Program-made: the position numbers and the translations under genes | Part shown: positions 424 to 25,712 of the stretch, in pieces | Layout of the letters: the number at the start of each line of letters is the position of its first letter | Numbering within the stretch: position 1 is the first letter of the stretch | Source of the DNA: a virus | DNA: 25,712 bases | Direction: 5' to 3' (one strand) | Virus record (IMG/VR): IMGVR_UViG_3300010233_000109 | Location: 10,515-36,226 of that record | The notes under the pieces: generated by a model | Databases searched by the model: none | What the model was told of the DNA's origin: nothing | What the model saw: only the letters and a program-made list of their open reading frames with translations

Positions 424-3222
424 TCAAGCTCCTAAGTTTCCAACATTAACTCGGATATAAATCCAGTTTAATGGATATACTGGTTGTACACTTACGATAA
501 TATCCCATTGACGTGGATCAACTTGATCTTGTTTTACTGACAATCCACGATAGGCAGTAATTAGTCCTTGAGATACTAGAGCATTCAGTAGCAATACAGC
601 TTCTGTGTTTAGGGCGACTGGCGTATTGACGGTCTGTGGAGTTCCAATGAATCCCGCAAATCCTGAACGTAATACCTTAGCAACTCTGTCTCTGATGAAG
701 ACGATAGAGATTTCTTGTTCCTCTGGGAAACCAGACTGGCTGGTTGTGATACCCCATACCATTCTTCCACCGCCTGAAACTGGTTGCAAGGTTGTAACAC
801 CTGCAGCAGCTAATTGCTCAAGTACTAGAGTAGAATAGGTTTTGTTTCTTAAGATTGTAAATCCGCTTAGCACCTTGTTGGTGAATGGATTCTCTAACTT
901 CAAATCTCTGTTAGCCATACCGGCGGCAGCCGCGGCAAGGTAGAATCCATCGATTAACACGTTGTCTGCTCCAGCCTGAACAACAATCTGGTCAGGATAG
1001 AAGTAAACTGCTCTGAATGTTTGACCATAAGAGTTGGCTACAGAGTAGTTTGCCAAGTCTTCGATATTGCCAGACAAAACGTCCGTAATGTTAGCTCCCT
1101 GGATACCCTCTAGGATACCAATGTTCTCTACGGCGGCTGGTGATGCACCAGTCAAGTTAGCAGGAGTTAATCCTTGGATTGCTCCAATGAATAGGATTCT
1201 TTCTTTTCTGTTAGCAATACCACTCATTGAGATACAGTGGCTCAAACAGTTTTGGAAGATAACACTTGGAGTTTGATTTGGTAGTGGTACCAGAATATCA
1301 CATTCAATAGTTTGTAGAACTTCAAGAGCACTGACCCAGCCAGCATCATAGAATGATGCATCTCTTGCGTCAACAATTGTTACTCTAAGTTGGTTTCCGT
1401 TTGGAACAACGTTATGGTTTAGAACTAGGTATGAGCTAACTGCGGTCGTATCTAGAACTTCATATCTAACATTAGCTTCACTTACGAATACCATCTTCAA
1501 AGTTAATTGGTTTGTTCCTGAGTTATAAGCAGTGATATCGTAGGTTCCATTGTTGCCAACTAAAGATCCGCTAATCTTTAGTCTGTAGTCTGCTATTAAG
1601 TCTAAAGTAATTGCAAAGCTACCAAAGTTAACTAATGTGCTAGTGAAAGTAGCAGTTTCAGTTCCCAATAAAGCTACTAGTGTTCCATCTGTTCCAGAAG
1701 ATAATGCCACTGGCAATCCAGTTGGAATATGAATCAATTCAAAAGTTGCTGGAGTTTCTGAAACAAAATCAGGTAATGTTGTGACCGGTTCAATAGATAG
1801 TTGACCGCTAGATACGGCAGTAATATTGAAGGTTCCAATATTTCCCTTGTTAACTGAGTCAATTACCTTAAGACTCTTGCCAACGTAAGTTGAGTCAAAA
1901 GTAATGCTTGGAGAAGAGAATGTCGCTCTAATTCCATTGAATCCTGGAAGTCTTCCAAGATATCCATCAAACCCTGTGCTTATAGCTTCGAAACTTTGAG
2001 TTACTGTATAATCGAAAGAATATCCAGCAGGAGGTTGAAGATTGCTGAATATAAATTGACTTGCAGTTGGGTTACCACCAGTTCCAAGAGTATAGTAAGT
2101 GTACTTATTTGGTAGTAACTGAGTTTCAACTTGAGTCGTTGGATTTGTTACGAAAACGTGAATGTCAGCGTTGAAATCTGGAACCACTCCAAGTGGGAAC
2201 GGGAAAGTAAAGTCATCTGGGTTAGTAGAAAGAGCACTAACTGATGGAGACAAAACATAAGATGTTCTTCTTGGTAATGGAGGTGCGGCTTGCATACCAA
2301 TAAGAGACGATGCTCCATTGGCAAAATACAACTGAGCACCTAAGCTTAAATTATTGGTCAAGCTTGGAGATCCAGAGAAATTGAATACGTCTGTCATTCC
2401 TGCAAGAAGCGTTGGAACGTTAACTTTTCCAAGTGGAACTGAGTTTACAGTAAGAGAATCGCCACGTACTAGAACTCCGCTAGATACCATAACGGTAAAT
2501 CCATCACCTTCACGGAATGGAGAAGTTGCTATGCCACCAACAGACGTTTCAGTTATGCTAAAGCTAATTATTCCGTTGCTAACAACATTGCCATTAGCAG
2601 TCCAAACGATTGGGTTGCCATTAGCATCTAGTTTGGCTCCAGAGATAGTTCCGAAAGCTAAGAACTTTGCAGTACCAGCAATAGGTACGTTCAAAGCAGT
2701 TCTTTGAACGGATACACAACGAATAGTCCAAGTCTCTGGTGGAGAATTAACATCAACTAATGTTAGAGTTCCAAGAGATCCTAATCCAACATTTGTGCTA
2801 AGTGGAGTATAGAACGTACCACCTTGATCTTGCAAATGTGCGGACTGTAGAAGAACGCGGCCAGTTGTAGGATCTAATTGATAGTCGTAGTGATTACTAA
2901 AAGTTGTAGTTGAAGTAATTGGTCCAAGTTCTAACCCAACTAATGGAATGCCATTCTTGAATAGAGTCGTACGGTTATGAACTACAGGGAAGTTTTGAAG
3001 AGAAAAGTGTCTTCCATCAGCCCCTGTGTTTGACGTGTAGGTAGAATTTAGTCCGTCCTTGCCGCCACCTTGGGCTTGCGAAATTAAGACTTCACTTGTC
3101 GTACCTTGGCCTATCATGGCGGTGACACGTGAACCACCAGGGATGGCAACACCACTTGACTGGGTTACTACATCTGTGACTACTCCTGGTAGGATATTGC
3201 TTGCGCCTGGGATATTTGGCAT
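424..3222 (-). CDS. Contractile tail sheath protein, enlarged (932 aa)
   Basis: The C-terminal 200 residues look like a myovirus tail sheath: an Ala-rich AAAAAGMANRD segment (about 763-773), a long region with TYSTLVLEQLAAAGVTTL and ISIVFIRDRVAKVLR, and the ending QPVYPLNWIYIRVNV, a typical sheath handshake strand. Sheath subunits polymerise around the tube and contract on infection. At 932 residues it is clearly longer than T4 gp18 (659). The extra length lies in the N-terminal two thirds, which holds a block near residues 149-245 shared with the 647-residue protein at 12479-14422, and two similar beta segments near 436-497 and 529-592. The ATG has AAGGA seven bases upstream. The preceding 137 bases hold no gene but carry a 14-bp sequence repeated upstream of the 647-residue gene. 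The putative tube gene follows after 26 bases. Confidence 0.9.
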   Translation of the reverse strand: MPNIPGASNILPGVVTDVVTQSSGVAIPGGSRVTAMIGQGTTSEVLISQAQGGGKDGLNSTYTSNTGADGRHFSLQNFPVVHNRTTLFKNGIPLVGLELGPITSTTTFSNHYDYQLDPTTGRVLLQSAHLQDQGGTFYTPLSTNVGLGSLGTLTLVDVNSPPETWTIRCVSVQRTALNVPIAGTAKFLAFGTISGAKLDANGNPIVWTANGNVVSNGIISFSITETSVGGIATSPFREGDGFTVMVSSGVLVRGDSLTVNSVPLGKVNVPTLLAGMTDVFNFSGSPSLTNNLSLGAQLYFANGASSLIGMQAAPPLPRRTSYVLSPSVSALSTNPDDFTFPFPLGVVPDFNADIHVFVTNPTTQVETQLLPNKYTYYTLGTGGNPTASQFIFSNLQPPAGYSFDYTVTQSFEAISTGFDGYLGRLPGFNGIRATFSSPSITFDSTYVGKSLKVIDSVNKGNIGTFNITAVSSGQLSIEPVTTLPDFVSETPATFELIHIPTGLPVALSSGTDGTLVALLGTETATFTSTLVNFGSFAITLDLIADYRLKISGSLVGNNGTYDITAYNSGTNQLTLKMVFVSEANVRYEVLDTTAVSSYLVLNHNVVPNGNQLRVTIVDARDASFYDAGWVSALEVLQTIECDILVPLPNQTPSVIFQNCLSHCISMSGIANRKERILFIGAIQGLTPANLTGASPAAVENIGILEGIQGANITDVLSGNIEDLANYSVANSYGQTFRAVYFYPDQIVVQAGADNVLIDGFYLAAAAAGMANRDLKLENPFTNKVLSGFTILRNKTYSTLVLEQLAAAGVTTLQPVSGGGRMVWGITTSQSGFPEEQEISIVFIRDRVAKVLRSGFAGFIGTPQTVNTPVALNTEAVLLLNALVSQGLITAYRGLSVKQDQVDPRQWDIIVSVQPVYPLNWIYIRVNVGNLGA
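2488..2778 (-). repeat. Domain shared between sheath and 647-aa tail protein (copy 1)
   Basis: Residues 149-245 of the sheath align by eye with residues 191-279 of the protein encoded at 12479-14422. Shared elements in order are ETWxIxCV, AKF, G(T/S)xSG, GNxxVWxANGxVVSNGI and SFSITET, followed by a GDxFT segment. The similarity is clear in protein; the DNA has diverged more. The fold is probably an all-beta decoration or interaction domain. This is inference. Confidence 0.75.
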
Positions 3223-10167: not shown

Positions 10168-11767
10168 ATCCCTGACAATATACAACAGTACCTGCTGCCC
10201 CTGCTGAGCCAGTACCACTAGGGCCAGAGCCTGCTGCGCCACCACCAGCAGAGGCAATTCCGAGCCAGGATGGTTTAGTATTGTAAATGATAACGACACA
10301 ACCGCCACCGCCGCCACCACCACCAGCCCAGCCTGCTGTGTTTGCTCCTGCTCCACCATTAGCTTGTAAAATGCCACTTCCTGCTAATACATTGGCACAA
10401 ATTAATAGAATGCCGCCTCCACCACCGCCTCCACCACCGTCAATTGCTGGGCCACCAAGAGGTGATGCTCCACCACCTCCACCAGTACCACCGGCACATG
10501 AAATAATGTTAGGAGAGCCTATTGGAGAACTACTGACTGCAATATTTGATGCTAGCCAATTACTTATAGTAAAACGAGTAATATCAAAAACTGTTGGGCT
10601 TGGATTATTACGATCGCCTCCTAAATTGGCTGGATTACCACCTGCACCACCTGTACCACCAGTTGCCACATTAGAATTAGTTCCAACATTTATAAAGCTT
10701 ACTCCAGATTGAGATCCGCTAAAATGTAAACCTGATCCTCCATCAGAACCACCGCCAGTCCAAGCCCATGTTGCTCCAAGACCCTCAGTTGTACCAACAG
10801 CATCATCACCAGAGTTATCTATAGTTCCATTAACTGTTAAAATCCCAGTACACATAATAACAAATCCACTTGTCTTAATTGTTACTAAAGGATCAACTGT
10901 AAGATTGGTGCAAACAATATTTCTATTCATAGTATATGTTTTGGTGGCTGGAACCGGCGTTAAACCTAAAACAATACTTGTTCCATCAAATGTAGCTACG
11001 CCATCAGTACCACTTCCAAAATAAGCTCTGGCTGAAGATCCAGGACTAGTTGGAATCCATGATGAGCCATTAAATGTTAGGGTTTGACCGCTAGTTGGAG
11101 CAACTGCTGATACTGAAACAGTTTGCAATTTAGCAACTATTGGACTAGGATATGTTCCAGCTAAGTCTCCGCTCGCCGCACCATTTGGTGGCAAGGCAGC
11201 AACAGTAGTTGGTATCCAAGTGGCACCATTCCACTGTAAAAATTGTCCATTTGATGGAGCTGCAGGCGAAACTGGATGACTCTGTAACTGTGCAACGGTT
11301 GGGCCAGGATAAGTTCCTGACAAATCTCCACTGGCAGCACCGCCTGGTGGTGGCGCCGCAGTAGGAGTCCATGCACCAGCAGTAAATGCTAATACTTGAC
11401 CGGCTGAAGGAGCAATATTTACGACAGGATATCCTTGCAATCCACTTACCTTAGGAGATAAAGCGGTAGAAGTGGTGCCGCCAAGATCTCCACCTAAAGT
11501 AACTATACCTAAATTAGCAGTGCTTGTACCTTTAGTAGCTTGATTGATAGTTGGAACTGTTAAGATAGCAACAAGCTCTTGTAATGCTTGTTGAACTGTT
11601 GTAGTCGTAGTGCTATTGATTACCAAAGTTGGAAACAAATCAGTTTGTGTAGCATTATGTCTAAACTCAGTACCATCGACATGCTTTTGAAAGTCGAAAC
11701 GATCGGTGACTAATCTACCGACGCCTGGAACGTAATTTGGAGATGAGGGATTTTGGCTATTTGGCAT
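10166..11767 (-). CDS. Glycine-rich tail fibre/adhesin with tandem repeats (533 aa)
   Basis: The N-terminus (to about 45) ends in DFQKHVDGTEFRHNATQ. Residues 92-240 hold three related repeats spaced about 50-53 residues, each running from a GDLxGTYPxPxVAxLQ-type segment to GQxLxxxxxxWxPT. Such repeats are frequent in phage fibre shafts. After a beta stretch (270-320) the C-terminal 190 residues are extremely glycine-rich, with Gly runs near 368-378, 426-433, 444-452 and 482-489, separated by short hydrophobic strands (ILLICANVL, CVVIIYN). The arrangement recalls the polyglycine-II sandwich adhesins known from S16-type gp38, where Gly runs form the packed core and loops bind receptor. This is an analogy, not a demonstrated homology. 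Upstream of the ATG is a moderate AAGTGAG. The long proline-rich frame on the opposite strand is its antisense shadow. Confidence 0.75.
   Translation of the reverse strand: MPNSQNPSSPNYVPGVGRLVTDRFDFQKHVDGTEFRHNATQTDLFPTLVINSTTTTTVQQALQELVAILTVPTINQATKGTSTANLGIVTLGGDLGGTTSTALSPKVSGLQGYPVVNIAPSAGQVLAFTAGAWTPTAAPPPGGAASGDLSGTYPGPTVAQLQSHPVSPAAPSNGQFLQWNGATWIPTTVAALPPNGAASGDLAGTYPSPIVAKLQTVSVSAVAPTSGQTLTFNGSSWIPTSPGSSARAYFGSGTDGVATFDGTSIVLGLTPVPATKTYTMNRNIVCTNLTVDPLVTIKTSGFVIMCTGILTVNGTIDNSGDDAVGTTEGLGATWAWTGGGSDGGSGLHFSGSQSGVSFINVGTNSNVATGGTGGAGGNPANLGGDRNNPSPTVFDITRFTISNWLASNIAVSSSPIGSPNIISCAGGTGGGGGASPLGGPAIDGGGGGGGGGILLICANVLAGSGILQANGGAGANTAGWAGGGGGGGGCVVIIYNTKPSWLGIASAGGGAAGSGPSGTGSAGAAGTVVYCQG
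11048..11494 (-). repeat. Three tandem fibre repeats (about 50 codons each)
   Basis: Within the 533-residue fibre, residues 92-137, 143-187 and 196-240 are related. Copies 2 and 3 share GAASGDL(S/A)GTYP and end in NGxxWIPT. Copy 1 is the most diverged (LGGDLGGTTS to AGAWTPT). They probably form repeated beta elements of a trimeric shaft. Confidence 0.75.
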
Positions 11768-12478: not shown

Positions 12479-14422
12479 TTATGGCAGAATAATAGCGTGT
12501 GTGTGGCCAAGTACCATTTGTACAGTGCCGTCTATTATTACATGATTATGACCCTGGCTAACGGCTGTAGTTTGATTGATTTGTCCTATTGACAAAACCT
12601 TTTCATTTACAACAATCTCGTGACTGTGTGGCGGAAGACCAAGACCAAAACCAAGACTTGTATTGAGTTTCTTGGGGAAATCAGCAGTATTTCTGAAGAC
12701 GCGAATCTGGTAAGCTGGGTCATACTTACGAATTCTAAACGTTCTAAGTTTTTGACCACCTTGTTGTCCCAAAATAGTATTGTTACGAGTTACGCCAGCA
12801 ACTTCATATCTAAACTCTTCGTTATCATTTTGATCAAACAAAATCAAAATATCTCTTGTTTTAATCGTCGGAACAGTTAATGTCCAAAGACCCAATGGAA
12901 ATTCCGATTCCATTCCAGCTTCATACATCTTTAGATTTTCTTCAGTTGGGTCTGGTCTAACCAAAATTCTACCATCAGATCTTCTTGGATTAAAATACTG
13001 CTCATATCCGAAAACAAACTTCGTTCCATAACAGAATGGACATCTATCATCTGGATACTCACTAGATGCCAAATAACACGAACATGTTACGCCAGTTTGC
13101 ACTCTCTTAATTAGAACTGCCGGACGACCGTCGACAGATAATAGAACATCTTGCCTTTGCGTATTCTGATCTTGTAATGAGAATCCACGATAGATGTTAT
13201 AATTACCATTGGCATCAATACATCCCATCTCTCCACCAATATAGCTGCCTACACACGTGCCATTTAGAAGTTGAACTGGATCTGTTCTGTGATATCCGGC
13301 ATAGTCATATGGCGGGAAAGTTATGTTGGCAGTGTCAGCAGCAGATAAGTCGGTTGATAGAACGTCTTGCGTTACCTGGCGATAACCATCTAGAATAGTA
13401 AATGGAAAGTTAGGATACTCAAAACGCGTTTGACAAACATAAATATTGTCCCAGCGATTATCTTCTTCAATAGCCATTACGCTAACAAGCGGAGTGTATG
13501 TGTTGTATCCATCAAAACCAGAAACTGTATGACTTGTGATTGGAGTAGAGTTAAAACCTCTTCCTCCAGGAAGGCCAATAGCCCCGCCAACAGTTTGTGC
13601 CGTGAAGTAATCGCCTAGATGAAATTTGGTAGTCTCTGTAATAGAGAAACTTAGGATGCCATTAGAAACTACGGTACCATTAGCTGCCCATACAAAATTG
13701 TTGCCATATCCATCAACTAGGCTGCCAGATAGAGAACCGATGGTCTCAAATTTGGCACTAGAATATCCGTCGATTCTTTCCTCAACACAAAGAATTTTCC
13801 AAGTCTCATTGCGTGGTGTTAATCCAACCAATGCCAAAGAATTTATTGTGCCAGTGCCAACGTTACTTGGATTTGGTAAATAGTATTGTAGATTTGATTG
13901 TAAAGCCAAATGAGCTGGAGTATTAGCTCCTGCTGATGGAACAATCAAGTTATGGTTAACTGGATCAACGGCCAAGTATCTAATTAGCTCTATTCCTACC
14001 TGTACAATACCGGTAGCTGGAAAACCAGTTACATCAAGTAGCGGAACGATTAAGTCAGTGGCCGACATATTGGATCTTAATATACTACTTGGATAGAACC
14101 TAACATTATCATGTGATATTGGCAAGTAATTTAAGAACGAGATCACATTAGGATCATACTCTACTGGCCTAAGTGAGAACCAATAATCTTGACCAGGATT
14201 AAGTCCAATTATATTGGCTGAAACCGAGCCATCAATAACTACAAGTTTAACACCTTCTTTGAATACGGTGTCCTGAGATGTAGAATAATAAAGGTGGTAA
14301 GCTATTTTGTTTCTTTGATTATCTGGATAGGCAATAAACCACTCTAAAGTAGCGGATTGACCGTCACCCAAAGACAAAGCATGTTTTAGCCCACTTAACA
14401 GAGGGTTAGCATAATGAACCAT
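12479..14422 (-). CDS. Baseplate/tail protein with FN3-like, shared, Cys-cluster and HxH regions (647 aa)
   Basis: Residues 25-92 look like a fibronectin type III domain (TLEWFIAYP, AYHLYYST, IIGLNPGQDYWFSLRPVEY). Residues 191-279 are the block shared with the sheath. At 447-464 two Cys pairs, CSC and CPFC, followed by YGTKFVFGYEQYFNPRR, suggest a metal-binding knuckle. The C-terminal 50 residues carry three HxH motifs (HSH 599-601, HNH 625-627, HTH 640-642). In T4 gp12 and gp37 HxH motifs from three chains bind metal in trimeric fibre tips, so this protein may be a trimeric spike or short-fibre component. The upstream region shows no Shine-Dalgarno; instead an 11-bp inverted repeat lies immediately before the ATG. 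A tail or baseplate role is well supported by context; the exact position in the particle is not known. Confidence 0.7.
   Translation of the reverse strand: MVHYANPLLSGLKHALSLGDGQSATLEWFIAYPDNQRNKIAYHLYYSTSQDTVFKEGVKLVVIDGSVSANIIGLNPGQDYWFSLRPVEYDPNVISFLNYLPISHDNVRFYPSSILRSNMSATDLIVPLLDVTGFPATGIVQVGIELIRYLAVDPVNHNLIVPSAGANTPAHLALQSNLQYYLPNPSNVGTGTINSLALVGLTPRNETWKILCVEERIDGYSSAKFETIGSLSGSLVDGYGNNFVWAANGTVVSNGILSFSITETTKFHLGDYFTAQTVGGAIGLPGGRGFNSTPITSHTVSGFDGYNTYTPLVSVMAIEEDNRWDNIYVCQTRFEYPNFPFTILDGYRQVTQDVLSTDLSAADTANITFPPYDYAGYHRTDPVQLLNGTCVGSYIGGEMGCIDANGNYNIYRGFSLQDQNTQRQDVLLSVDGRPAVLIKRVQTGVTCSCYLASSEYPDDRCPFCYGTKFVFGYEQYFNPRRSDGRILVRPDPTEENLKMYEAGMESEFPLGLWTLTVPTIKTRDILILFDQNDNEEFRYEVAGVTRNNTILGQQGGQKLRTFRIRKYDPAYQIRVFRNTADFPKKLNTSLGFGLGLPPHSHEIVVNEKVLSIGQINQTTAVSQGHNHVIIDGTVQMVLGHTHAIILP
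13586..13852 (-). repeat. Domain shared between sheath and 647-aa tail protein (copy 2)
   Basis: Residues 191-279 match sheath residues 149-245, including NETWKILCV, AKFETIGSLSG, NFVWAANGTVVSNGI and SFSITETT. The short stretch before it (YYLPNPSNVG) also resembles the sheath (FYTPLSTNVG), so the homologous unit may begin slightly earlier. Confidence 0.75.
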
Positions 14423-14465: not shown

Positions 14466-14493
14466 GATGTTATATATGAACATGAGGGCCGTC

Positions 14494-15312
14494 ATGCCAA
14501 GTTTAGAGTCCATAAATAATTTGAAGTCAAAAGAAAAAGAAATTTGCGAATTATATGCAAGCGGAGAATCTTCGAATAAAATTGCCGCCAAACTGCAACT
14601 ATCAAAATCAAGCGTTAAGAAAACGCTTAAAAACCATGGTGTCATTATCAGAGACGCCTCTTTTTCACATCAAATATATGGAGTTAACGAAAATATCTTT
14701 GAAAATATAGACTCACATGAAAAAGCATACTGGGTTGGATTTTTAACAGCAGATGGAACTATTACTGGCGGAAGATTAAAACTAGCATTGGCAGTTAAAG
14801 ATATAAAACATTTATATGCATTCAAAAAGTTTATGGGATCAACACACCCAATACTTACTTATAAACAATTGCAAGGCAAAACATCAGCCGTTAAAAACAA
14901 AGAGAAAGACTATTACTACGCAATAATAGGATTCTCAAATAAAAAACTAATACAAGACTTATCTAAATACTCAATCACAAAACGTAAAAGTTTTACTGTA
15001 AAATTTGGACAGAATATCCCCCATAAATATATGTGCAGCTATATGGCCGGCTTAGTTGATGGCGACGGATTTATTACCGTTAGTAATGATAATATTCATT
15101 TTGGATTTGTTTCTCACGAAAAATTCGCACAAGATTTTCAAAACTACTTAATGAAAGTATGCGATTTGCAAGAAAATAAGCTGGCCGACCATGAAAACGT
15201 TAAGAGCGTTAGATATGGCGGAAAACAAGTAAAAAGAATACTGGAATTTTTGTATTCTGACACGCCTGTCTTCTTGGAAAGAAAGAAAAGCAAATTAGAC
15301 TTTTTCCAATAG
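14494..15312 (+). CDS. LAGLIDADG homing endonuclease with N-terminal HTH
   Basis: Two LAGLIDADG helices are visible: AYWVGFLTADGTI and, about 105 residues later, SYMAGLVDGDGFI. The acidic residues of each motif would bind the catalytic metals, so one chain has both active-site halves. The N-terminal 50 residues (EICELYASGESSNKIAAKLQLSKSSVKKTLKNHG) resemble a resolvase-type helix-turn-helix. I chose the ATG at 14494 because GAGGG lies five bases upstream; in-frame ATGs at 14467, 14476 and 14482 lack this. The gene is alone on the plus strand, between minus-strand genes, as expected for a mobile free-standing endonuclease. Its last 18 bases overlap the 3' end of the convergent metalloprotease-like gene, so either insertion was very precise or that gene's last codons were altered by it. 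Confidence 0.88.
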   Translation: MPSLESINNLKSKEKEICELYASGESSNKIAAKLQLSKSSVKKTLKNHGVIIRDASFSHQIYGVNENIFENIDSHEKAYWVGFLTADGTITGGRLKLALAVKDIKHLYAFKKFMGSTHPILTYKQLQGKTSAVKNKEKDYYYAIIGFSNKKLIQDLSKYSITKRKSFTVKFGQNIPHKYMCSYMAGLVDGDGFITVSNDNIHFGFVSHEKFAQDFQNYLMKVCDLQENKLADHENVKSVRYGGKQVKRILEFLYSDTPVFLERKKSKLDFFQ

Positions 15313-15819
15313 GACCGACTCTAACTCGTCTCTTTTATTTTTATTATCTATCTCATGATGATCTAATAGCTCTTCTACATACTGTTCCGCCTCATCTTTG
15401 CCAAATTGTTCAGCGATATACTCTACTTGATTAGAAAATCCTTCCCTTTCGTACGGATTATCTAAATAACTTCCATCATCCGAGCTTTTGGTTGCTTTAT
15501 TTCCAGTTGTTTGCTGAAGCCAATGAGTCATCTCATGGACGCCGTAAGAGAAATCTTCAAAAAAGTCAGCATCTGTCAATAGTTTGTAATTGAAAATGAT
15601 TACACCATGATCGGTTTTAGCGGACACATCTAGTTCTCCAAACATCATTGGAATGTAGTCAAGCTCTTCAATACTTACTCCATACTCCTCAAATACTTTC
15701 TGTACCACATCGTTCTTTTTTAGATATTCTCGCATTTTCTTAATCATGCGATCTAAAGACTTATAGGGCAGTTTTTTGACCTGGGAGAGCGGAATTTCTT
15801 TTTCTTTTTGCACGGCCAT
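15295..15819 (-). CDS. HExxH zinc metalloprotease-like protein (174 aa)
   Basis: The central motif SYGVHEMTHWLQQTTGN contains HEMTH (residues 95-99), the zinc-binding HExxH signature in which His95 and His99 bind zinc and Glu96 is the catalytic base. A downstream acidic segment NPYEREGFSN (121-130) could supply the third ligand, as in gluzincin-type enzymes. The rest is charged and largely helical (DRMIKKMREYLKK, EYIAEQFGKDEAEQYVEELL). No signal peptide is visible, so it probably acts in the cytoplasm or in the virion. Substrate and role are unknown: prohead or virion protein maturation, host-factor cleavage or a non-catalytic role are all possible. The gene starts 33 bases from the divergent 2H phosphoesterase gene with no clear ribosome site. 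Its C-terminus overlaps the LAGLIDADG gene by 18 bases. Confidence 0.6.
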   Translation of the reverse strand: MAVQKEKEIPLSQVKKLPYKSLDRMIKKMREYLKKNDVVQKVFEEYGVSIEELDYIPMMFGELDVSAKTDHGVIIFNYKLLTDADFFEDFSYGVHEMTHWLQQTTGNKATKSSDDGSYLDNPYEREGFSNQVEYIAEQFGKDEAEQYVEELLDHHEIDNKNKRDELESVLLEKV

Positions 15820-15823
15820 ACAA

Positions 15824-15843
15824 GTATGGTTAAATAGTCATAC
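15824..15843. promoter_or_regulatory. Short inverted repeat in 33-bp divergent intergenic region
   Basis: GTATG and CATAC flank a 10-base AT-rich centre (GTTAAATAGT) between the divergent metalloprotease-like and 2H phosphoesterase genes. So small a region must hold the control signals of both genes if they start here, and the repeat could be an operator. The arms are short, so chance is possible. Confidence 0.25.
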
Positions 15844-15852
15844 GAGGTCATC

Positions 15853-16470
15853 ATGGCATTTTTAGGAATTAGAGTCCCGCAGACAGTCGGCAAACAATTG
15901 TCAAAAATAGACGTTCCCGGCGAAAAAAGCAGTACGTCAGAATTACACATAACTCTCTTATATTTTGGCAAGCAATGGCCAGTATCAGAAATTTCCAAAG
16001 CTCTGGAAGCTTGCTACGAAGTAACTTCCAAATTCAATCCATTCTTTGCCAAATTGACAAAGGTAACTTCCTTCTCAAAACTACCTAATGACAAATTCCC
16101 TGTCATTAGTAAAGTGGAGTCTGAAGAACTTCATCAACTACGAACTATGTTGGCTAATAAGTTTGACGAAGAAAAAATAGAGTTCTCCAAAACTTACAAA
16201 GACTTTAATCCACATGTTACGCTATCATATTCTGATACGGCACCTGAAGAGATTGAGTTTGCCCCAATAGAGTTTGCTATTGAGGAAGTAATATTGTGGG
16301 GAGGTGACCATGGTGAGGATCGAATTTTCGTTACTCTGCCACTTGGTGGCACCCAGTTCGATAAAGATGCTATGCGATTGAAGAAATCTGAAATCCTTGA
16401 TAAGATAGCCAAAAATCTTATGCAAGAGTTCTTTACTCCATCAATTGAGCGCAGAGAAACAGAACGATGA
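15853..16470 (+). CDS. 2H phosphoesterase superfamily protein
   Basis: Two HxT motifs define the family: HITLLYFG (His32, Thr34) and HVTLSYSD (His121, Thr123), 89 residues apart, each at the end of a predicted strand. 2H enzymes (LigT/RNA 2'-5' ligase-like, cyclic phosphodiesterases, and the phage anti-CBASS enzyme Acb1) use both His-Thr pairs on 2',3'-cyclic or 2'-5' phosphodiester bonds. The overall length of 205 residues includes a C-terminal charged helical extension (170-205) not needed for the fold. The ATG has GAGG five bases upstream. The facing neighbour across a 51-base gap is a Pnk-like kinase, which suggests RNA end processing; cyclic-nucleotide or signal degradation against host defence is the main alternative. 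Sequence alone does not decide between them. Confidence 0.75.
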   Translation: MAFLGIRVPQTVGKQLSKIDVPGEKSSTSELHITLLYFGKQWPVSEISKALEACYEVTSKFNPFFAKLTKVTSFSKLPNDKFPVISKVESEELHQLRTMLANKFDEEKIEFSKTYKDFNPHVTLSYSDTAPEEIEFAPIEFAIEEVILWGGDHGEDRIFVTLPLGGTQFDKDAMRLKKSEILDKIAKNLMQEFFTPSIERRETER

Positions 16471-16521
16471 TATATTTGGTTTATCATAGAATCTATTTGA
16501 CATGTAATGCGAAATGATTTC

Positions 16522-17127
16522 TTAAATTCTATATCTTTCAGAAAAAACTTTAGCTACTTTTAGTATTGTAATAAAGGAAGCTTTTTTTTCTTCAAAAGGC
16601 AATTCCAATTGTGGATTTGGTTTTGATACCTCTTCTTCGAATAAAGGATTTCCTGCTTCATCAGTTTTAGATACCATACGCTTTTTGTCCCACCATGGTG
16701 GAATAAATTCTTTTTGAAAACTATCACTCATACTTTTATGTGCAAATTCAGGAACACCATGCTGCTGTCGTTTAAAAGCTTCACCTTGGTCTGCCACCAC
16801 TTCATTAATGCCAAAACTATAATCATGAGCTTCGGCAAGAGTCTTATATGGCGAAAGCTCCCAGGCACTTAAATTGGTGTTGTCAACAATAATTAGATCT
16901 ATATTTTCACTAATTGCTTTCATAAACTTTTTGAAACAGTACTTATGTGCATCAGATATTTTAGTACGATCAAATGCATAAGTGCCGCCGCCTAGTTCAT
17001 AAAAGAAATCGTCTGCACTACAAATTGCTGTAGTTTTGCCCTCTGATTTGGCCTTGTCAATTAACTGTTTGGCTAATGAACTTTTACCAGATCCCGGAAT
17101 AGCCCTCATTGCTATTACTTGTCCCAT
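16522..17127 (-). CDS. P-loop kinase, polynucleotide kinase-like (AAA_33 type)
   Basis: The N-terminus is strand-P-loop: MGQVIAMRAIPGSGKSSLAK, with Lys15-Ser16 as the Walker A nucleotide-binding residues. SADDFF (38-42) matches the catalytic Asp region of T4 Pnk kinase domains, VDNTN (81-85) follows a hydrophobic strand, and FKRQQHGVPE (118-127) resembles the Arg-containing lid seen in N4BP2/Pnk-like proteins. The likely reaction is ATP-dependent phosphorylation of a 5'-OH nucleic-acid end, but small-molecule kinases share this fold. No phosphatase or ligase domain is attached; residues 140-201 are charged and end in a hydrophobic helix. The ATG has a strong AAGGAG that overlaps the stop of the preceding structural gene (10-base gap), so the two are translationally linked. 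Confidence 0.75.
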   Translation of the reverse strand: MGQVIAMRAIPGSGKSSLAKQLIDKAKSEGKTTAICSADDFFYELGGGTYAFDRTKISDAHKYCFKKFMKAISENIDLIIVDNTNLSAWELSPYKTLAEAHDYSFGINEVVADQGEAFKRQQHGVPEFAHKSMSDSFQKEFIPPWWDKKRMVSKTDEAGNPLFEEEVSKPNPQLELPFEEKKASFITILKVAKVFSERYRI

Positions 17128-17137
17128 ACTTATCTCC

Positions 17138-18037
17138 TTAAATAATTCTTCTTGCTCTTAGGTGTCTAAGCCTTGCAAAGGCTGGATTTATAGCACTATT
17201 CATGCTGAACACACCCAAACCTCTTGGTGCTGGACGCAAGCTGTTCTTAATATACTTTAACTTTTCCCAATAGTGAGATAGCAAGGTACTATATTGAGTT
17301 TGCATTAACTCAGAAACTGTTGGTGGGCTAAAACTCAAACCGTTGTCTGTTAGTTGGAATTCACGGCCACGCTCGATAAGAGACTTGGAAGCCAGTGCAT
17401 ATAGAGTTGCACCTTCTACTAAAATTTCTCCGAATTGTTTGACGAAATCATTGTCATCAAACTCGAAGAAAGTAAAGTAAGGCACTTGATTAAAATCCCA
17501 TAAAGCTGTGGCGATAAAAGTAGTCAACATGTCTACAGAAAAAATATCACAGTCTACATAGACAGTGTTTCCATATGGGTCAACCGACTTGGCCTTACCA
17601 GAGCTATTCAATCTCATTTTAAGAGATTTGATTAGATGATTGATATTGATTATAGCGGCTTGCGAATAGTTGAATCCAGGGTCATCTCCTAAATGGACAT
17701 AACCATCTGTATTGATTGATGGTACTTGAGTATGTGTAACTACGAAGCTGAATGTAGTCTCTACTCGGAAGCCGTTGATATGAGCGACCCAAATATCGTT
17801 AAATACACCGTAAGGTCCGTTGATAGGAACGGTGAAGATAAAAGAATACTTGCCGGTCGATATCTGCGACACTCCCACGGAGGTCGGAGCTATGGCAACC
17901 AACCCGCTTGGCTGAACGATAGAAATTGTTGGAAACGAGTCAGCGTTGACGGGTGCCCCTGTTTGGTCTTTAAATTGTACAGTTAGGTTAACCTGTTCTG
18001 TTACGTCGATTAACTCACCTCTGGCTTTAATTACCAT
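17138..18037 (-). CDS. Virion structural protein with Ig-like N-terminus
   Basis: Residues 1-110 are a beta sandwich of the bacterial Ig-like or macroglobulin-like type: VNLTVQFKDQTGAPV, TISIVQPSG, a STGKYSFIFTVP strand, GVFNDIWVAH and FSFVVT. The second half (120-299) is alpha-helical with YVDCDIFSVDMLTTFIATAL, then a long amphipathic helix and a basic tail (HLRARRII). No signal or membrane segment is seen. I chose the ATG at 18037, with GGAG six bases upstream; a TTG four codons earlier is the alternative. Head-to-tail connector, neck or baseplate roles are all possible. It lies between a kinase gene, which it is coupled to, and the divergent adhesin operon whose first gene encodes a similar Ig-like domain. 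Confidence 0.5.
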   Translation of the reverse strand: MVIKARGELIDVTEQVNLTVQFKDQTGAPVNADSFPTISIVQPSGLVAIAPTSVGVSQISTGKYSFIFTVPINGPYGVFNDIWVAHINGFRVETTFSFVVTHTQVPSINTDGYVHLGDDPGFNYSQAAIININHLIKSLKMRLNSSGKAKSVDPYGNTVYVDCDIFSVDMLTTFIATALWDFNQVPYFTFFEFDDNDFVKQFGEILVEGATLYALASKSLIERGREFQLTDNGLSFSPPTVSELMQTQYSTLLSHYWEKLKYIKNSLRPAPRGLGVFSMNSAINPAFARLRHLRARRII

Positions 18038-18158
18038 GAACGTCTCCAAATCTCCATTATCGATCTATTATCTACAGAAATGTTAGAATATGAATACAAA
18101 ATCTTAAAAGGCGGTAGATATTATATGTTAATATGCTGACATTTATGTGAGGAAACTA
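18038..18158. promoter_or_regulatory. Divergent intergenic region, candidate bidirectional promoter
   Basis: These 121 AT-rich bases separate a minus-strand structural gene from the plus-strand adhesin operon, so promoters for both should lie here. Candidates are the segment GATATTATATGTTAATATGC near 18117-18136 and, on the minus strand, TATAATATCT around the same place. The piece GTTAATATGCTGAC resembles the 14-bp repeat found before two other tail genes. None is a strong consensus match. Confidence 0.35.
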
Positions 18159-24920: not shown

Positions 24921-25712
24921 TTACATTGTGTAGTTGGATTTGGCGTCATTGTAGCCCTTTTCCATCATTTCTCGTATCTTAAAAGGCCTGAAATCTAATA
25001 GGTCTTCAATTAGATTAGAGTCTGGTCTAATGATATTGAGCTGAACAAGCTTTTTCTCTGTAATTCCTGCCTGAGCCATCCTATTATACATCTCTACCTT
25101 TTCAATATCATTAGCCATAATCTTATCTGTCGATAAATCAAGGCTTCTTTTCAATACATCTACAGTGGTCGGATTTTCAATAAACTTCTTCATCCTAACC
25201 TTTGGATTAGTAATGATAACATCAATAATATCCGCACCTAAATCTACAGCCTTCTTAATAGGTGAGATCTCCTTGACCCCACCATCCGTCCAAAGCTGTC
25301 CTAGAAAACTAACTGGTGTCAGCATGCCGGGGAATGAGGCCGAGGCGATTACAGCATCTATGAAGTGATCGGATGTCTGGTCAAAAATAGTGTATTTACC
25401 AGAACTAAGAGATACTGTTCCCACGTTCACCATCTTACCACTTTTTCTAATCTTATCTAAATCAATGCCATTTCTTAATAGGTTATGTAACGGAGAACTG
25501 TCATAGAAACTCTTTTTCCAAATTGCGTGCCATCTGCCAAACGGAAACCATCGCTTGTAGATTTTGGTCGAATCTATTTCATTCCACAAATCACATAGAA
25601 GGCTAGAAGATTGCTTCTCTTCTCCATATGGGAACATAGCTAGGAATGCAGAATTGATTGCTCCAACAGATACTCCGCAAAAAGCGTCATACACCGTGCC
25701 CAATTCACCTAT
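24921..25712 (-). CDS. Patatin-like phospholipase (N-terminus beyond window)
   Basis: The frame is open to the right edge, so the start and the Gly-rich oxyanion-hole motif are not seen. The visible part begins with a patatin core: FCGVSVGAINSAFLAMFP holds the GxSxG nucleophile motif (Ser in GVSVG), and LWTDGGVKEISPIKKAVDLG holds the Asp of the DGG motif, giving the Ser-Asp dyad. Between them are FDQTSDHFIDAVIASASFPG and other typical elements. Patatins hydrolyse acyl chains from membrane lipids. In a phage this could help lysis, entry or membrane remodelling. The DGG motif sits at about residue 167 of the visible part. It ends 39 bases before the small beta-rich gene. An apparent TTG start inside the window is not the true start. 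Confidence 0.88.
   Translation of the reverse strand: MGELGTVYDAFCGVSVGAINSAFLAMFPYGEEKQSSSLLCDLWNEIDSTKIYKRWFPFGRWHAIWKKSFYDSSPLHNLLRNGIDLDKIRKSGKMVNVGTVSLSSGKYTIFDQTSDHFIDAVIASASFPGMLTPVSFLGQLWTDGGVKEISPIKKAVDLGADIIDVIITNPKVRMKKFIENPTTVDVLKRSLDLSTDKIMANDIEKVEMYNRMAQAGITEKKLVQLNIIRPDSNLIEDLLDFRPFKIREMMEKGYNDAKSNYTM

Follow-up and report, generated by a model that had tools for sequence, protein, structure and literature searches.

RESULTS

Gene content of the locus

The window, by which we mean the whole stretch of 25,712 nucleotides that was analyzed, covers positions 10515 to 36226 of a 36,226-bp virus record. The source contig, a 36-kb fragment, consists mostly of tail genes encoding sheath, tube-initiator-like, baseplate-like, and fibre-like proteins (the tube-initiator-like gene lies elsewhere on the contig). 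An initial annotation of this DNA had described a 2H phosphoesterase gene facing a Pnk-like kinase gene inside a tail gene cluster, and this arrangement held: both open reading frames are intact, they converge across a gap of 51 bp, and their neighbors are tail and baseplate genes. The features discussed below are as follows (window positions).

424-3222: tail sheath gene
12479-14422, minus strand: structural gene (647 aa), conserved flank STR
14467-15312, plus strand: LAGLIDADG homing endonuclease gene (PF14528, 5.6e-6; phrog_4645, 1.8e-52), an accessory insert of the hotspot interval
15295-15819, minus strand: zincin-like gene, invariant neighbor of the hotspot, starting 33 bp from the 2H start and divergent from it
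15523-15537, minus strand: HEMTH motif of the zincin-like protein, residues 95 to 99 (alignment A2; HEINH in L007)
15831-15840, minus strand: conserved TGACTATTTA element (ATATGACTATTTA-like), about 21 nt upstream of the zincin start
15853-16470, plus strand: 2H phosphoesterase gene (205 aa, intact), antisense to the structural genes; assigned with Pfam, NCBIfam, PHROGs, an AF2 model, and fold matches
15946-15954, plus strand: first HxT motif, H32-I-T34 (alignment A1)
16213-16221, plus strand: second HxT motif, H121-V-T123 (alignment A1)
16375-16413, plus strand: C-terminal tag helix RLKKSEILDKIAK, residues 175 to 187, outside the 2H fold (combined tag profile, 17.1 bits)
16435-16467, plus strand: extreme C-terminal tail TPSIERRETER, conserved in 7/7 sequences of alignment A1 (pLDDT <50)
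16522-17127, minus strand: P-loop kinase gene (201 aa, intact), variable cargo of the slot; AAA_33, polynucleotide-kinase-like (phrog_2071/505)
17080-17103, minus strand: Walker A motif AIPGSGKS of the kinase, from the translation
17138-18049, minus strand: structural/baseplate-like gene (303 aa), conserved flank DWN, query for 61 related loci

A patatin-like phospholipase gene (PF01734, 3.2e-17) was also found amid the tail genes, at 24921 to 25703. Scanning the region for promoters and terminators revealed no excess over shuffled sequences.

The 2H phosphoesterase and the kinase

The identity proposed for the 2H protein was confirmed. It matched PF13563 above the cut-off (8.2e-13; 49.1 bits against 27) and PF02834 at 1.1e-9, it carries two HxT motifs on a predicted ThpR/LigT-like 2H fold, and both motifs were kept in 26 of 27 long homologues. 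Placement in a narrower family was less clear, as the score with the ThpR/LigT model TIGR02258 (48.4 bits) was under the curated cut-off of 65.7 and that with the Acb1 family PF23474 (23.0 bits, 7e-5) was under the cut-off of 27. Arg130 of LigT, which follows the second motif and binds the product phosphate (PMC5283653), has no equivalent, the position being Y or F in all seven sequences of alignment A1. No credible match for the 2H protein was present in the defence library, and single-sequence scans of IMG/VR with the 2H protein and with the kinase yielded zero relatives. The single 2H match among bacterial genomes, at 34% identity, came from a Planctomycetota MAG, on a contig that looks phage-like; its tag scored 2.3 bits, and it was excluded from the counts.

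An AlphaFold2 model built from seven sequences was of moderate quality (pLDDT 70.6, pTM 0.74). The best VIA-align fold match to this model was drCPDase (Z 15.9, rmsd 3.5, 159 aligned residues), and high scores were also obtained with Thermus thermophilus TT0787 (Z 15.6), Escherichia coli LigT (Z 14.7), Usb1 (Z 13.6), and rotavirus VP3 (Z 13.1), with the phage BCSR5 phosphodiesterase at 9.5. The Acb1 entries 7t26 and 7t27 reached Z 8.7 to 8.9 and, with this model of moderate confidence, ranked under about 40 other 2H entries; AKAP folds also outscored them. The predicted fold is therefore nearer to the 2',3'-cyclic phosphodiesterases (ThpR/LigT) and Usb1 than to Acb1. Among viral models (BFVD), the best matches were 2H proteins of Gordonia phage GMA6 and similar phages, and in the three records of GMA6-type phages that were inspected the 2H protein sits amid head genes. 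Judged from its motifs and families, the protein is very probably an active enzyme, with cyclic or 2'-linked nucleotides as its predicted substrates.

The kinase matched PF13671 (AAA_33; 1.8e-10), phrog_2071 ("ATPase"; 1.4e-24), and phrog_505 ("polynucleotide kinase"; 4.4e-13), and the Walker A motif together with the AAA_33 domain marks it as a putative polynucleotide kinase. Where T4 Pnkp has its Asp/Arg motif, this kinase differs in reading DDFF. In the defence library, the kinase matched just residues 5 to 104 of a CARF-PDDEXK-AAA model.

Conservation of the locus in related phages

Relatives were collected with the structural protein STR, which recovered six IMG/VR contigs, then with an alignment of the 2H proteins, which recovered 21 loci, and with the downstream gene DWN, which recovered 61 loci, 50 of them with both flanks. 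The first six relatives all carried the 2H gene (45 to 53% identity) and the zincin-like HEMTH gene (68 to 76% identity); the kinase was found once, in G005, where a homologue with 35% identity lies about 140 kb from the locus. The gene order structural gene, zincin, antisense 2H, slot, and downstream gene was seen in 20 of 21 loci, as far as the loci extend. Where both flanks were present, the zincin gene occurred in 50/50 loci, the 2H gene in 26/50 (antisense in every one), and the kinase in 0/50. The slot in relatives instead held LAGLIDADG or HNH-like homing endonuclease genes or small unrelated open reading frames, or was empty, and elsewhere in the genomes the kinase was missing from most relatives; five had just weak matches to a larger frame of 313 to 334 aa. 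Since the kinase is missing from the slot in relatives, it is a local cargo; in all likelihood, as far as gene neighborhoods can tell, it alternates with many other cargos and is an incidental neighbor of a 2H gene that is independent of it.

The 2H and kinase genes had been read as a paired RNA-repair module, with neighbors never conserved together named as the outcome that would speak against the pairing. That outcome is what was observed, as none of the 26 loci with a 2H gene between both flanks had the kinase beside it, and the pairing thus found no support. We nonetheless considered the possibility that the two enzymes heal RNA ends, such that the 2H protein would open 2',3'-cyclic ends left by host anticodon nucleases, the kinase would phosphorylate the 5'-OH, and a distant ligase would seal. 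Such a role for 2H enzymes and kinases has already been proposed for jumbo phages, in a survey in which 2H enzymes were suggested to remove cyclic ends ahead of sealing by ATP-grasp ligases, and in which kinases were proposed to accompany ligases (PMC7824862). The top matches of the predicted 2H fold are 2',3'-CPDases, in Pseudomonas phage Pyxpy02 a homologue of the kinase adjoins an RNA ligase, and RNA ligases were matched in seven other large contigs of relatives, some with ligase clusters. However, in the relatives, to which the ligase search applied (the source contig being a 36-kb fragment), PF09511, PF09414, and PF01139 (RNA_ligase, RNA_lig_T4_1, and RtcB) had zero matches in the 2H-bearing contigs G005, G006, G013, and G015 (145 to 204 kb), which may be incomplete, so that this absence is no proof. 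In the 252-kb contig G007, about 130 kb separates the 2H gene (about 179 kb) from a kinase match at 40.5 kb and the three ligase matches at 42.6, 44.1, and 48.0 kb. Together with the kinase count of 0/50, these results make RNA healing by this pair improbable. The segment of G007 from 40.5 to 48.5 kb, where a 334-aa open frame with the kinase match is accompanied by the three ligase matches, is itself a possible RNA-repair cluster.

The 2H proteins of the clade retain the catalytic motifs, the antisense position, and the tail at 42 to 64% identity. This long retention argues against the view that the gene is an ordinary moron, a neutral accessory enzyme kept by chance in a recombination hotspot. 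The gene is missing in 24 of 50 loci, and in L076 to L078 (5180-6243), where the zincin is intact, a LAGLIDADG gene directly adjoins a 2H gene truncated to 80 aa, as might be expected of a moron; we regard this explanation as very improbable. By sequence comparison, 2H is encoded in this jumbo-phage clade by a stand-alone gene, accessory yet long maintained, at a cargo hotspot of the tail cluster.

The invariant neighbor at this hotspot is the zincin-like gene. Its model was poor (pLDDT 60, pTM 0.47) and the fold matches were weak (best Z 4.6), several HExxH metallopeptidases being among them. The TGACTATTTA element was found upstream of the zincin gene in many loci, some of them without 2H, and accompanies that gene; with one copy or none per genome, it was rejected as a general late promoter.

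A terminal helix common to 2H and unrelated proteins

In the 2H model, residues 168 to 187 form a separate helix, and the fold matches mostly stop near residue 166. Nearly every intact 2H protein of the clade ends in such a 13-residue C-terminal helix (consensus LLxKxExFEKhA), L074, which has a different context, being the only intact one without it. Past the tag, some relatives have no tail, the 2H protein ending directly after the helix, and most extend by about 17 residues with ERRK or similar. In L073 (6001-6571), the 2H frame stops early and the tag carries on in another frame, as the result of a frameshift or sequencing error.

Because the motif had initially been spotted by eye, we relied on two fair tests, a scan with a profile of 2H tails only and a reversed-sequence control. 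Against 1458 open reading frames of G005, G006, G007, G015, and G024, with 2H excluded, the six best matches scored above 16 bits (16.2 to 29.8) and all started within residues 6 to 9 of unrelated proteins; the reversed control reached a maximum of 14.8 bits. These six comprise two slot cargos and the members of two ortholog families, of which one is weakly endolysin-like and the other, assigned to phrog_4301, is kinase-like in our reading. With the combined profile and 3561 open reading frames, matches above 16 bits were C-terminal in 26 cases, N-terminal in 10, and internal or reversed in 0 (seeds included). The tag of the 2H protein was the sole strong match to this profile on the contig. 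Other tagged slot cargos were a DnaJ-domain protein (L148; 5.6e-11), ParB-like proteins (L059/L131 and L163), and a 309-aa protein (L149), and in L122/L123, where 2H is fused to a ParB_N-like domain, a tag follows each module (16.3 to 18.9 and 20.3 bits). Strong non-2H tags came from G005, G006, and slot cargos of other loci; genome-wide, G007, G015, and G024 had none, and no known head protein was shown among the tag carriers. The helix is thus a short terminal peptide common to nonhomologous proteins, as is the T4-type CTS. Counted by independent families, the case that it constitutes a transferable terminal helix, judged from sequence, is good but not overwhelming.

Three further candidates were rejected. 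A C-terminal match in an exonuclease (G005, 134979; G006, 102965) was left out of the tag count because it is probably the native last helix of a DnaQ-like fold. The C terminus of the kinase, ILKVAKVFSERYR, looks alike by eye, yet the combined tag profile gave it -3.6 bits. A second motif, N-terminal and of the LADKFExKL type, seen on small slot proteins (L112, L124, L148, and L159) and at G006 100060, had no terminal enrichment in G005 and G006. As separate observations, AQE occurs shortly after the N-terminal tag in L043 (8151), L033 (19447), and L067 (6639) and resembles the prohead protease sites of giant phages, which we note as a lead only; and arrays of many small CPxC zinc-ribbon-like proteins, nearly all with a similar C terminus of a hydrophobic stretch followed by FS, were present in G006 (141854-152362) and G005 (173158-180125; L043-L044, L034).

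Promoters upstream of 2H

Just upstream of the 2H gene, 6 of 16 relatives (L063, L064, L065, L067, L070, and L072) had a TTGACA-17 bp-TARGAT promoter ending 7 to 13 nt before the start codon (10/12 matches, versus 1.25% of random 90-mers); no such promoter precedes 2H in the window. A host-type, sigma70-type promoter fits early expression of 2H, whereas packaging needs the protein late, and this counts against delivery in the virion.

DISCUSSION

The unexpected result of this analysis is the terminal tag common to 2H and unrelated phage proteins. Our overall reading, which we advance tentatively, is that a stand-alone, tagged 2H enzyme encoded at a cargo hotspot may act as a delivered counter-defence effector. 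Its parts differ in strength. A counter-defence role of some kind is slightly more likely than not. That the tag means delivery in the virion, for which we argue by analogy, is a more tentative suggestion. The terminal helix would be a sorting tag, most likely a capsid- or virion-targeting peptide working like the CTS of T4, which directs internal proteins, among them the anti-restriction protein IPI, into the head (PMC9026906; PMC5694885). Some 2H copies would then enter the host together with the DNA, where the enzyme would hydrolyze a product or signal of host defence, namely a 2',3'-cyclic-phosphate or 2'-linked nucleotide, candidate substrates being tRNA-cleavage ends, an oligoadenylate, or a cyclic oligonucleotide. 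RNase activity or breakdown of defence nucleotides has been proposed for phage 2H domains, which occur fused to MuF and portal head proteins; neither the 2H domains of polyvalent proteins nor their solo counterparts were ever observed alongside RNA ligases (PMC5512222). More speculatively still, the clade might use the modular helix, at either the N or the C terminus, as a packaging code by which diverse, exchangeable effectors (2H, ParB-like, DnaJ, kinase-like, and wall-binding proteins) enter the virion to be injected, their genes being swapped at the tail-cluster hotspot.

The initial annotation had also raised an Acb1-type counter-defence role for 2H, of which the counter-defence part stays plausible; by family criteria, however, the protein is not an Acb1 (23.0 against 27 bits), and its predicted fold is nearer to ThpR/LigT and Usb1. 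In the Acb1 alternative, an Acb1-like anti-CBASS nuclease would be made early from its own promoter, and the C-terminal helix would be merely a lid or dimerization element. Acb1 does have a C-terminal lid (PMC9117128), and the weak family match, the Acb1 fold match to the model, and the sigma70-type promoters of relatives are in keeping with it. However, ThpR/LigT, Usb1, VP3, and AKAP folds are all better matches, the window lacks such a promoter, and the tag helix is N-terminal in unrelated proteins and is therefore not a 2H lid; we consider this alternative unlikely. It is likewise doubtful that the tag serves as a helix for docking to another phage or host partner (a tail or baseplate protein, the zincin, or a subcellular compartment) and that 2H stays in the producing cell. 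A short helix usable at either terminus would suit docking, the zincin always adjoins the hotspot, and zincin peptidases have been proposed to process polyvalent proteins (PMC5512222); however, the zincin gene also occurs in 24 loci that lack 2H and so does not serve 2H exclusively.

Should the tag be a packaging signal, it would provide a sequence handle with which candidate injected effectors could be listed directly from the genomes of uncultivated jumbo phages; 2H enzymes would join these candidates, and the defence-nucleotide idea (PMC5512222) would become testable with a stand-alone tagged 2H. If it is not, a tempting, unsupported RNA-repair pairing has still been corrected.

Compared with known systems, the 2H protein resembles ThpR/LigT (TIGR02258, PF02834/PF13563) in its predicted fold, its two HxT motifs, and its best structural matches (Z 14 to 16), but it is under the family cut-off, has Y/F in place of Arg130, and possesses an extra C-terminal tag helix in a phage tail-cluster context. 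With Acb1 it shares a phage 2H fold and the HxT/HxT arrangement, but it differs in its subthreshold family score, weaker fold match, and other C-terminal element. The adjacent kinase shares a P-loop kinase domain with T4 Pnkp and the AAA_33 polynucleotide-kinase-like ATPases (phrog_505, phrog_2071) but lacks the 3'-phosphatase domain of T4 Pnkp. The closest phage sequences and BFVD models are the 2H domains of polyvalent and head proteins (Iyer et al. 2017; Gordonia GMA6 Orf12, Arthrobacter gp18, and Tunturi_5 gp321), likewise encoded among virion genes with no RNA ligase link; those reside in larger proteins near portal/MuF genes, whereas here 2H is a separate antisense gene with a short terminal tag. 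Finally, the T4 CTS of IPI, IPII, IPIII, and Alt is N-terminal and cleaved, whereas the tag described here is also C-terminal; the likeness lies in a short terminal peptide on otherwise unrelated small effectors, with a cargo that varies between relatives.
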